Positions 11,507 through 13,646 of a stretch of 64,000 bases of DNA are shown here, piece after piece. The notes under the pieces are model-generated. The model was given only the letters and a program-made list of their open reading frames with translations, was not told the origin of the DNA and made no database searches. The DNA is taken from positions 62,001 through 126,000 of the forward strand of contig CAMOPX010000001.1 of the NCBI GenBank assembly GCA_946622415.1, read 5' to 3'. This DNA is from an uncultured bacterium. GTDB taxonomy: Bacteria; Cyanobacteriota; Vampirovibrionia; Gastranaerophilales; Gastranaerophilaceae. The number at the start of each line of letters is the position of its first letter. The stretch's first letter is position 1. Made by a program: the position numbers and the translations under genes.

Positions 11507-12496
11507 ATGAGTGTAGTTATTAACACCAACGTAGATTCAACCAAAATTCAAAATTGTTTAACAAATGCGACAAAAGATCTTTCTAAAACAATGGAAAGAA
11601 TGTCCAGCGGTTTAAAAGTAAAATCCGCACAAGATGATGCAGCAGGATGTGTTATTTCAGCTCGTATGAAAGTTCAATTGAACGGTACACAAATTGCACA
11701 AAACAACATCCAAAACGCAAAATCATTATTATCAACAACAGAAGGAAATTTAGACGTTATTTCCGATAACTTATCAAGAATCAGAGATTTAACGCTTCAA
11801 GCAAAGAACGGTACTTATTCTGCAGAAGAAATTAAAGCAATGGACGATGAAGTTCAAGAACGTATTCAAGAAATCAACAGGGTTTCTTATTCCGCCAAAT
11901 ATTCTTCTTCATTCTTATTTAACAACGGTAAAGTTGTTACACAAGAGCAAACAACCGGTCTTGGCGGTTTGGGTGCTACATTCCAAGCAGGACCTAACGC
12001 AGGTGATGATAACACCGTTGTTGCCGATAAATCATTGTTTGCTTCAGTTGAATTTTCAGCTATGTCAGGTATTAAAAACTTTAGCCTCGTGAAAATATCT
12101 GCAGGCGAAGGAGATAGTATTGAATACGGTCAAAATAATGTTCAATATAATAACGGCGGCACACTTGAAAGTACACCAAAAGTAATTAAAAACGATGGTA
12201 CGGCAGATGCGGAAACAAGTGATTTTGATAAAGCAATTCTTGCAATGGATAGAGCGATTGATAATATTACCGATAGAAAATCAATCATAGGTTCTGCAGG
12301 TAACCGTCTTGATTCTGCTTTAAGCACATTAAAAACACAATTTGAAAACCTTGAAAGTGCAAATTCGTTAATCATAGATGCTGATATAGCGTCAGATGCT
12401 TCTAAATATACGCAATCATCAATTCTGCAACAAGTATCAACATCTCTATTAGCTCAAGCTAACTCTGCACCTTCAATAGCAATGAGTTTAGTATAA
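11507..12496 (+). CDS. fliC: Flagellin
   Basis: Filament subunit, exported by the flagellar type III apparatus. 329 aa. The N-terminal D0/D1 region ('MERMSSGLKVKSAQDDAAG' at about residues 30-48) and the C-terminal D1/D0 region ('SSILQQVSTSLLAQANS') are well conserved, and the central variable part (about 150-240) is short. The start has a strong Shine-Dalgarno (AAAGGAG). It is the only gene between its own promoter and a terminator, so it is monocistronic. A FliA-like sigma factor lies at 23.4 kb. No hook, motor or export genes are in the window. Confidence 0.95.
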   Translation: MSVVINTNVDSTKIQNCLTNATKDLSKTMERMSSGLKVKSAQDDAAGCVISARMKVQLNGTQIAQNNIQNAKSLLSTTEGNLDVISDNLSRIRDLTLQAKNGTYSAEEIKAMDDEVQERIQEINRVSYSAKYSSSFLFNNGKVVTQEQTTGLGGLGATFQAGPNAGDDNTVVADKSLFASVEFSAMSGIKNFSLVKISAGEGDSIEYGQNNVQYNNGGTLESTPKVIKNDGTADAETSDFDKAILAMDRAIDNITDRKSIIGSAGNRLDSALSTLKTQFENLESANSLIIDADIASDASKYTQSSILQQVSTSLLAQANSAPSIAMSLV

Positions 12497-12526
12497 TAAA
12501 AATCTAACTGGTGATGGCAATACAGT

Positions 12527-12556
12527 GGGTCGATTCTAGGGTCGACCCTTTTTTTT
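12527..12556 (+). terminator. Intrinsic terminator after flagellin
   Basis: GGGTCGA (12527-12533) pairs with TCGACCC (12542-12548) and is followed by eight T. Confidence 0.85.
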
Positions 12557-12658
12557 ATTTTACTGTGCGTAATAATCGGCAAATGTTTCGTTTGTTTTGT
12601 ATTGCCGTAAATCCTTATAGGAATTGAAAATAAGTGAATGGTGAAGAAATATGTTTAT

Positions 12659-12696
12659 GGATTGCCACAAAATCGCAAGCGATTTCTCGCAATGAC
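12659..12696. repeat. GTCATTGCGAG-type palindromic intergenic repeat
   Basis: Outer bases GGATTGCCAC and CTCGCAATGAC are those of a dispersed intergenic repeat seen in many bacteria. They enclose a 7-bp stem, AAATCGC/GCGATTT, with a 2-nt loop. Confidence 0.6.
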
Positions 12697-12720
12697 AGAT
12701 TGGATAGTATTGCCCTCATC

Positions 12721-12768
12721 TGCGTTCGCTAAGTTTGCTTTTGCAAACTAAGGCTCACTTGATTCGGG
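12721..12768. repeat. Repeat C, copy 1
   Basis: Begins TGCGTTCGCTA and ends GGCTCACTTGATTCGGG. The core is a 7-bp stem AGTTTGC/GCAAACT around TTTT (12732-12749). Copy 2 is nearly identical; copy 3 keeps the flanks but has a different stem. Confidence 0.75.
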
Positions 12769-12779
12769 ATTTCCGCCTG

Positions 12780-12796
12780 TCAAATCAGAGATTTGA
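12780..12796. repeat. Repeat A, copy 1 (variable-stem hairpin)
   Basis: Seven-bp stem TCAAATC/GATTTGA with a 3-nt loop, preceded by CCTGT. Repeat A copy 2 (12928-12948) follows the same CCTGT but has a different perfect stem. Confidence 0.5.
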
Positions 12797-12821
12797 AACG
12801 GCGGTCATCTAAGGACTTCAT

Positions 12822-12850
12822 AAACGTCAAAACTCAACGTTTTGCCGTTT
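12822..12850. repeat. Repeat B, copy 1
   Basis: Outer stem AAACG/CGTTT and inner stem CAAAAC/GTTTTG around the constant loop TCAAC. Copy 2 (12973-12999) keeps loop and outer stem and swaps an A-T pair for G-C in the inner stem. Confidence 0.55.
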
Positions 12851-12871
12851 ATTTCGCACAGCTTTGCCCTC

Positions 12872-12918
12872 GCGTTCGCTAAGTTTGCTTTTGCAAACTA
12901 AGGCTCACTTGATTCGGG
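12872..12918. repeat. Repeat C, copy 2
   Basis: Begins GCGTTCGCTA and has the same AGTTTGC/GCAAACT stem and right flank as copy 1, about 150 bp downstream of it. Confidence 0.75.
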
Positions 12919-12927
12919 TATGCTCCT

Positions 12928-12948
12928 GTGGAAATTGAAAATTTCCAC
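12928..12948. repeat. Repeat A, copy 2 (variable-stem hairpin)
   Basis: Nine-bp perfect stem GTGGAAATT/AATTTCCAC with loop GAA, in the same position relative to repeats B and C as copy 1. Confidence 0.5.
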
Positions 12949-12972
12949 GTCGCCTTAGTACGGCTTCGTGCT

Positions 12973-12999
12973 AACGGCAAAGCTCAACGCTTTCCCGTT
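12973..12999. repeat. Repeat B, copy 2
   Basis: Outer stem AACG/CGTT, inner stem AAAGC/GCTTT, loop TCAAC. Differs from copy 1 by a paired A-to-G and T-to-C change. Confidence 0.55.
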
Positions 13000-13026
13000 C
13001 GCGCTTCGCACACTTCTGCCTAAATC

Positions 13027-13069
13027 TGCGTTCGCTAAGTGCAGTTGCACTAAGCTCACTTGATTTAGG
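13027..13069. repeat. Repeat C, copy 3
   Basis: Same left flank (TGCGTTCGCTA) and right flank (CTCACTTGATT) as copies 1 and 2, but the stem is AGTGCA/TGCACT with a 2-nt loop: both arms changed together. Confidence 0.7.
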
Positions 13070-13070
13070 A

Positions 13071-13100
13071 TAAAAAAACGCTCCAAAAAAATATTGGAGC
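13071..13100 (-). terminator. Intrinsic terminator for the gene at 13140
   Basis: On the minus strand GCTCCAA pairs with TTGGAGC (13080-13100), followed by a run of seven T (13072-13078). Confidence 0.8.
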
Positions 13101-13139
13101 TTCGATGTTATTGAAAGGAAAAGTATAAACCTGTTACTA

Positions 13140-13646
13140 CTATTTCGCTCTCTCGTTTTGTGTTGTGTCTTTCTTGCCAGTATTTGCGAAGGGGTTATAG
13201 TTACTATTAGAGGAGTTTGAATTGCTGTCTGTTATTGTGAAAGTTCTTATTTGTGTTTCGGGTTTTTCAATGGTTTTTGGTACTGCTATTTCACTTGCTT
13301 GTACAGATTGTGTCATTGATACATTTTTTTGGACATTTGCCGCAGAATATAAGCTTGCTGCTGCTTTTGAATTTAATTCCGCTACATTTACGGATTGAAC
13401 ATACAAACCTGCCTGATTCATCGCAATTTGTTTTTGCAATTGAACGTTTGTTCTTGATGAATATAAATCTATTCCGAGACTTGCTCTGTTGAATTTGGAA
13501 TAGTCGATTTCTTTAACGACAGGCTGTTGATTTTTTGCTGAATTAAGAATGTTACCTGCGATTTTTTCAACATTTATAAGATCAACACCCTGTGCGTTAT
13601 ATAAAGCTGTATTCAAGCTGACATTCATTTTTCCTTGTTGTCCCAT
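13140..13646 (-). CDS. Unknown protein, Ala/Ser/Asn-rich
   Basis: 168 aa, not recognised. No signal peptide or membrane segment. Residues about 1-115 are rich in Ala, Asn, Gln and Val and probably helical ('NVAELNSKAAASLYSAANV'); the last 50 are low-complexity with a Ser/Asn stretch. The start ATG follows AAGGAAAG. It is monocistronic: tpiA upstream ends in its own terminator and a terminator follows. Its place next to flagellin suggests, but does not show, a flagellar link. Confidence 0.6.
   Translation of the reverse strand: MGQQGKMNVSLNTALYNAQGVDLINVEKIAGNILNSAKNQQPVVKEIDYSKFNRASLGIDLYSSRTNVQLQKQIAMNQAGLYVQSVNVAELNSKAAASLYSAANVQKNVSMTQSVQASEIAVPKTIEKPETQIRTFTITDSNSNSSNSNYNPFANTGKKDTTQNERAK

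Follow-up and report, generated by a model that had tools for sequence, protein, structure and literature searches.

The window analysed here, i.e. the whole stretch of 64,000 nucleotides, belongs to the genome of a gut bacterium, 1.88 Mb in 50 contigs (G000), whose closest named relatives are Candidatus Gastranaerophilales metagenome assemblies (best match of the triosephosphate isomerase, 87% identity). Between 13069 and 12712, read on the minus strand, it contains an array of palindromic modules arranged in the order C-B-A-C-B-A-C with a period of about 150 bp. The features of this locus are as follows:

13140-13646, minus strand: 168-aa ORF, the gene upstream of the array, present in 26 of 28 same-genus genomes
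13071-13100, minus strand: intrinsic terminator of the gene 13140-13646 (terminator scan); the array starts directly past its T-tract
13018-13069, minus strand: first C module, outer stem CCTAAATC/GATTTAGG, terminal stem AGTGCA/TGCACT (covariance-model match G000:C1:75018-75069, and sequence)
12955-13017, minus strand: B module, GTGTGCGAAGCGCGAACGGGAAAGC-GTTGA-GCTTTGCCGTTAGCACGAAGCCGTAC (sequence; B family by frame and loop)
12920-12954, minus strand: A module, GGCGACGTGGAAATT..AATTTCCACAGGAGC (sequence; A family list)
12866-12918, minus strand: second C module, stem AGTTTGC/GCAAACT, 3' arm with a 4-nt deletion (covariance-model match G000:C1:74866-74918)
12805-12865, minus strand: B module, AATAAACGGCAAAAC-GTTGA-GTTTTGACGTTTAT (sequence; B family)
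12770-12804, minus strand: A module, CCGCCGTTTCAAATC..GATTTGACAGGCGG (sequence; A family)
12712-12768, minus strand: third C module, outer stem CCCGAATC/GATGAGGG with a GA/GA mismatch, terminal stem AGTTTGC/GCAAACT (covariance-model match G000:C1:74712-74768)
12659-12696, minus strand: GTCATTGCGAG-stem-GTGGCAATCC element, belonging to another repeat that has swapped stems of its own (sequence; four copies in the genome)
11507-12496, plus strand: flagellin gene, with its own terminator-like site at 12527-12556

A preliminary description of this DNA had reported three C copies with common flanks (GCGTTCGCTA / CTCACTTGAT) and two alternative terminal stems, A modules with the stems TCAAATC/GATTTGA and GTGGAAATT/AATTTCCAC, a changed B stem and a recurrence of about 150 bp. 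All of these are present in the sequence, the spacing between successive C copies being 150 and 151 bp. The outer arms of C form an additional covarying stem that had been overlooked (CCTAAATC/GATTTAGG in the first copy, CCCGAATC/GATGAGGG in the third). Conversely, the suggested link with flagellin is to be dropped, as the array belongs to the opposite strand and starts directly past the terminator belonging to gene 13140-13646, on the minus strand; its position ‘downstream of flagellin’ is incidental. Compared with dinucleotide shuffles, the fold of the 376-nt array has z-scores of -6.3 (minus strand) and -5.5 (plus strand). None of the Rfam 15 covariance models matched the window at the gathering threshold, nor the region 12400-13300 at E up to 1.

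An exact search for the C frame gave five occurrences in the genome, and none for the reversed pattern. A blastn search of the array against its own genome returned 60 matches (approx. 30 at E below 1e-9) on many contigs and often at contig ends, which merge, with the window array, into 22 regions displaying the same module order. Exact-frame counts, fold z-score and further blastn copies thus indicate that the C repeats are not owing to chance. From 25 copies of the same genome we built a covariance model of C comprising 52 positions and 16 pairs. With a threshold of E up to 0.01, this model retrieved 47 copies in the genome and detected the module in 22 of 24 same-genus genomes, copy numbers in the genus ranging from 0 to 47. 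In a first sample of 15 genomes from other genera of the order, it gave no match, and among 146 genomes sampled more widely in the order, 12 were C-positive, all from one family, four of them belonging to three other genera. A contig search with a single exact A-motif pattern gave no match, near genomes possibly being left out of the contigs searched. All these comparisons are based on draft, metagenome-type assemblies, and the evidence comes from searches together with some 60 sequence stretches, each 1.7-3.9 kb long.

The modules, of roughly 52 nt (C), 60 nt (B) and 35 nt (A), form one hairpin each, all on one strand. The proposal that stems stay paired while their letters change is borne out for C, and likewise for B and A. 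Among the first 25 C copies, 97.2% of the pair cells were standard and 62 showed double changes, versus 16 in shuffles; among 127 distinct copies from the genus, 97.5% were paired, with 483 double-change cells against 146 and a covariation score of 0.61 against 0.24. As the alignment was fitted to the covariance model, these counts are biased towards it, but shuffles remain far off, and so do slides, in which moving one arm by 1-3 columns lowers pairing to 27-38%. Neither a lack of further copies nor arm changes that disrupt pairing, the two outcomes named beforehand as refuting, was encountered. In B modules, the stems are swapped within the constant frame TGTG...(stem)-GNTGA-(stem)...CCGTAC or TGGACT: 43 distinct cores carry 17 different 5-nt arms, and 168 of 172 cells of the inner stem are Watson-Crick, in a search set with no pairing requirement. 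A modules likewise exchange their stems within the frames CGACGT..CAGGAGC and CCGCCGT..CAGGCGG. The internal loops of C are short and keep their letters, loop 3 being GA/GA in 120 of 150 copies and loop 1 GA/GA in most. GA/GA mismatches can form stable sheared pairs, and their complement is TC/TC, so that this is possible on one strand only. The pair cells of C comprise 1900 Watson-Crick, 32 G-T (1.6%), 8 A-C and 42 other combinations. From the GA/GA mismatches and the excess of G-T, we infer that the CCCGA strand is the one whose fold matters.

Arrays are extragenic, clustered, close to stop codons and mostly sense-oriented. Empty and filled, or duplicated, states are seen at four kinds of site, namely past the terminator of the 168-aa ORF, between rpsH and rplF, in RNase P RNA and at tRNA genes:

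— Transcript ends. Upstream sequence sufficed for 93 array starts. Of these, 25 are located 0-5 nt past the stop codon of an ORF (at least 60 aa) on the same strand, versus 2.7% of control intergenic positions (a 10-fold enrichment), and 15 directly follow a hairpin and T-tract, versus 4.0% of controls; the sites being partly orthologous, p-values overstate independence. Selection against other sites and shared ancestry of sites may account for part of the stop-codon enrichment. A terminator-like hairpin follows the 168-aa ORF in nearly all of the 26 orthologous loci, and arrays with stems unrelated among species start at its T-tract in 8 of 26 genomes (a count that includes a remnant in G019, called by eye). 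In the spc operon, the rpsH-rplF gap is filled in 11 of 27 genomes, a few nt from the rpsH stop, and empty (68-155 nt) in 16; two of the filled gaps (G005 and G012) hold related modules without C. We also observed, upstream of rplF in nearly all genomes, a conserved hairpin-like leader (GGGTTAAATCG...CGATGCGTTCCCGCT).

— tRNA genes. At tRNA-Leu, tRNA-Pro and tRNA-Met genes, the array is preceded by some 10-14 nt of tRNA 5' sequence; the promoter region and tRNA 5' end (about 26-63 nt) recur as a direct duplication on its other side, ahead of a complete tRNA. A uniform target-site duplication was sought at stop-codon and terminator sites, and none was seen there.

— RNase P RNA. Among the 24 genomes with a readable 5' part, the loop of the P3 hairpin, to which the Rfam alignment assigns the insertion, holds an array in 14 (G000, G001, G004, G011, G013, G015, G017, G018, G019, G021, G023, G039, G041 and G042) and is empty in 10; in the filled set three arrays are partial at contig ends, that of G015 is reversed and that of G041 is a remnant. 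P3 stays paired at the junction, e.g. GCGTACCC...GGGTATGAGGAAAGTCC in the genome of the window. In seven genomes, this one included, B-A modules occupy the P12 loop, the segment measuring 183-207 nt when filled (where bounded) versus 55-66 nt when empty. In G000 itself, rnpB (G000:C11:11756-12234 and upstream) holds inserts of about 290 nt in P3 and about 150 nt in P12. Set against empty relatives, these inserts offer a natural test of the amount of additional RNA that an essential ribozyme can accommodate. Separately, the G019 assembly contains two RNase P RNA genes; as one of them (on C36) shares its 5' region with that of G003, this bin is probably contaminated.

Judging by position rather than by RNA data, the arrays in rnpB and in the spc operon, at the least, must be transcribed. 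In practice, these repeats can disturb the annotation of rnpB, tRNA genes and the spc operon in Gastranaerophilales.

Taken together, the copies, the architecture, the conserved structure, the lineage-specific presence and the empty orthologous sites (rpsH-rplF, P3 and P12 of rnpB, the terminator of the 168-aa ORF) make it likely that the array is one insertion of a non-autonomous, modular family of mobile hairpins, similar to BOX and BIME elements. Counting against this reading, searches for Y1/RAYT, RVT_1 and IS110 domains revealed no mobilising enzyme in the genome, stop-codon and terminator sites showed no uniform target-site duplication, and the assemblies are drafts; some orthologous fillings could also stem from a single ancient insertion with later exchange of its modules, rather than from repeated insertion.

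Two other readings bear on why the hairpins are kept. The modules might be RNA elements serving the host, i.e. hairpins of 3'-UTRs or operons that tune transcript ends, stability or translation and are under selection as RNA. Their mostly sense orientation, their position 0-5 nt past stop codons and within transcribed units (rpsH-rplF, rnpB), and the excess of G-T over A-C cells on the CCCGA strand (32 versus 8; p = 0.0002, for copies that are not independent) are in line with such a role, as is the reported effect on translation of Escherichia coli REPs located 15 nt or less from a stop codon (PMC12306157). However, presence is patchy among relatives at any single locus, copy number ranges from 0 to 47 within one genus, and the insertions in RNase P loops and beside tRNA genes share no common regulatory logic, so that we regard this role as unlikely to explain the family. 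Somewhat more plausible, though still doubtful, is that pairing is made by mutation, through hairpin-templated correction copying one arm onto the other with no selection on structure, a process compatible with a mobile family. Indeed, distinct C copies that differ at exactly one pair do so on both sides in 51 comparisons and on one side in 36, G-T cells are rare, and in a few copies perfect pairs have replaced the GA/GA mismatch (CCTAAATC/GATTTAGG, CCGTAAAC/GTTTACGG, CCCGAATC/GATTCGGG). Against pure correction, which would erase it, GA/GA persists at two to three constant positions in the majority of copies, and G-T cells outnumber A-C cells by 4:1, which singles out one strand. The survival of GA/GA together with this excess suggests that selection on one strand is also at work; paired arms can be maintained through selection acting on the fold, through hairpin-templated correction or through the two combined.

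The remaining readings concern the origin of the copies. REP/BIME and REPIN elements, associated with RAYT transposases, are extragenic palindromes forming mosaic arrays, often by stop codons (PMC2817692, PMC3733652, PMC3116915), and REP sub-families possess alternative complementary stems (PMC3733652), all of which recalls the present arrays. REP hairpins also bear an unpaired GTAG or CGTC tetranucleotide at their foot (PMC3733652). Such a terminal tag is missing here, C modules starting with CCC and ending with GGGC, with GTAG confined to the interior of one C sub-type; moreover, the modules are larger (52-60 nt, multi-helix), with conserved GA/GA internal loops and rare G-T pairs. A nearby REP-type transposase had been anticipated, but the Y1/RAYT domain (PF01797) is absent from the genome of the window and matched in only 1 of 24 same-genus genomes. 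The modules are dispersed, inserted elements, as first suspected, yet a REP/BIME family moved by a RAYT transposase is a very improbable identity for them. Least credible of all is an artefact of metagenome assembly or binning, with repeats collapsed or misplaced: many arrays do reach contig ends and G019 has its two rnpB genes, one with the 5' region of G003, but the same insertion points recur with different stems in independent assemblies of different species, which makes misassembly an unlikely source.

Among known systems, the BOX elements of Streptococcus pneumoniae are composite intergenic repeats (boxA-boxB(n)-boxC) that form stem-loops and are thought to be non-autonomous and parasitic (PMC3049150). 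The present family shares with them distinct modules in a fixed order, a variable internal copy number, an intergenic location and stem-loop formation. Compared by description rather than by sequence, it differs in its (C-B-A)n-C order, in the wholesale replacement of stems with pairing kept and in its insertions in RNase P RNA and beside tRNA genes; in addition, a survey of Y1 and IS110 types found no donor insertion sequence here. Mobile hairpins that enter genes and structural RNAs are exemplified by the palindromic elements of Rickettsia and the double-hairpin elements of fungal mitochondrial DNA, from which our arrays are set apart by lineage and architecture, again on the basis of descriptions, not sequences. 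Regarding rnpB, entire covarying hairpin modules occupy the P3 and P12 loops, unlike STRR sequences, which are reportedly short (heptanucleotide) tandem repeats. In heterocyst-forming cyanobacteria, STRR sequences sit inside the gene for RNase P RNA (Vioque 1997, cited in PMC2858038); being repeats in this RNA from cyanobacteria broadly defined, they are the nearest precedent for the rnpB insertions. The literature on Gastranaerophilales and Melainabacteria repeats that we covered, which excludes most subscription journals, yielded no description of a C-B-A hairpin family.

The elements enter at transcript ends (stop codons, terminators), in hairpin loops of RNase P RNA and in the 5' regions of tRNAs, and presumably move through a folded single strand, either RNA or single-stranded DNA. 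A trans-acting enzyme would presumably read the conserved unpaired GA/GA and GNTGA signals, so that the stems would be free to vary provided that both arms change jointly; a compact, self-closing insert would also be the form that an mRNA or a ribozyme could tolerate. The search for a carrier in the genome of the window covered the Y1/RAYT, reverse transcriptase (RVT_1) and IS110 domains, and none of the three gave a match. We put forward, as a speculative and rather improbable proposal, that the family spreads by a folded-strand mechanism targeting transcript ends and hairpin loops (terminators, P3 and P12 of RNase P, the tRNA 5' arm), with an enzyme of neither HUH/RAYT, reverse transcriptase nor IS110 type that would recognize only shape and a few unpaired letters, a logic like that of integron attC sites but applied to a genome-wide repeat. 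From this large natural set of hairpins, in which stems turn over and shape and a few unpaired letters stay fixed, the features recognized by the carrier of such an element could be deduced directly.

The (C-B-A)n-C arrangement occurs at many loci, and identical C-B-A units adjoin one another in arrays, from which array growth is read as local tandem duplication. Identical terminal C arms are found in 37% of within-genome pairs (from different loci) versus 11% of between-genome pairs (0 of 300 permutations), so that C copies inside one genome tend to evolve together. Further inserts are located at fixed points within modules: in C, GGATTTTG...CAAAATCC elements follow the GAG, whereas A holds segments rich in GCGAAG. 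The former elements, on contigs C18, C20, C13, C27 and C40 of G000, have differing interiors at one fixed point of C and look like a second insertion family. Beside the array, the GTCATTGCGAG-stem-GGCAATCC elements display the same arm-swapping habit in another short repeat, with three different stems among four copies (window 12659-12696, minus strand; G000:C3:114029, C31:18532 and C32:1928). Finally, a tandem repeat with GGGTCCGGTGACTCTGCCGAG.. units next to tRNA genes, together with degenerate tandem copies of a tRNA-Arg region, was observed at G000:C3:118627-119193 and 119654-119904.
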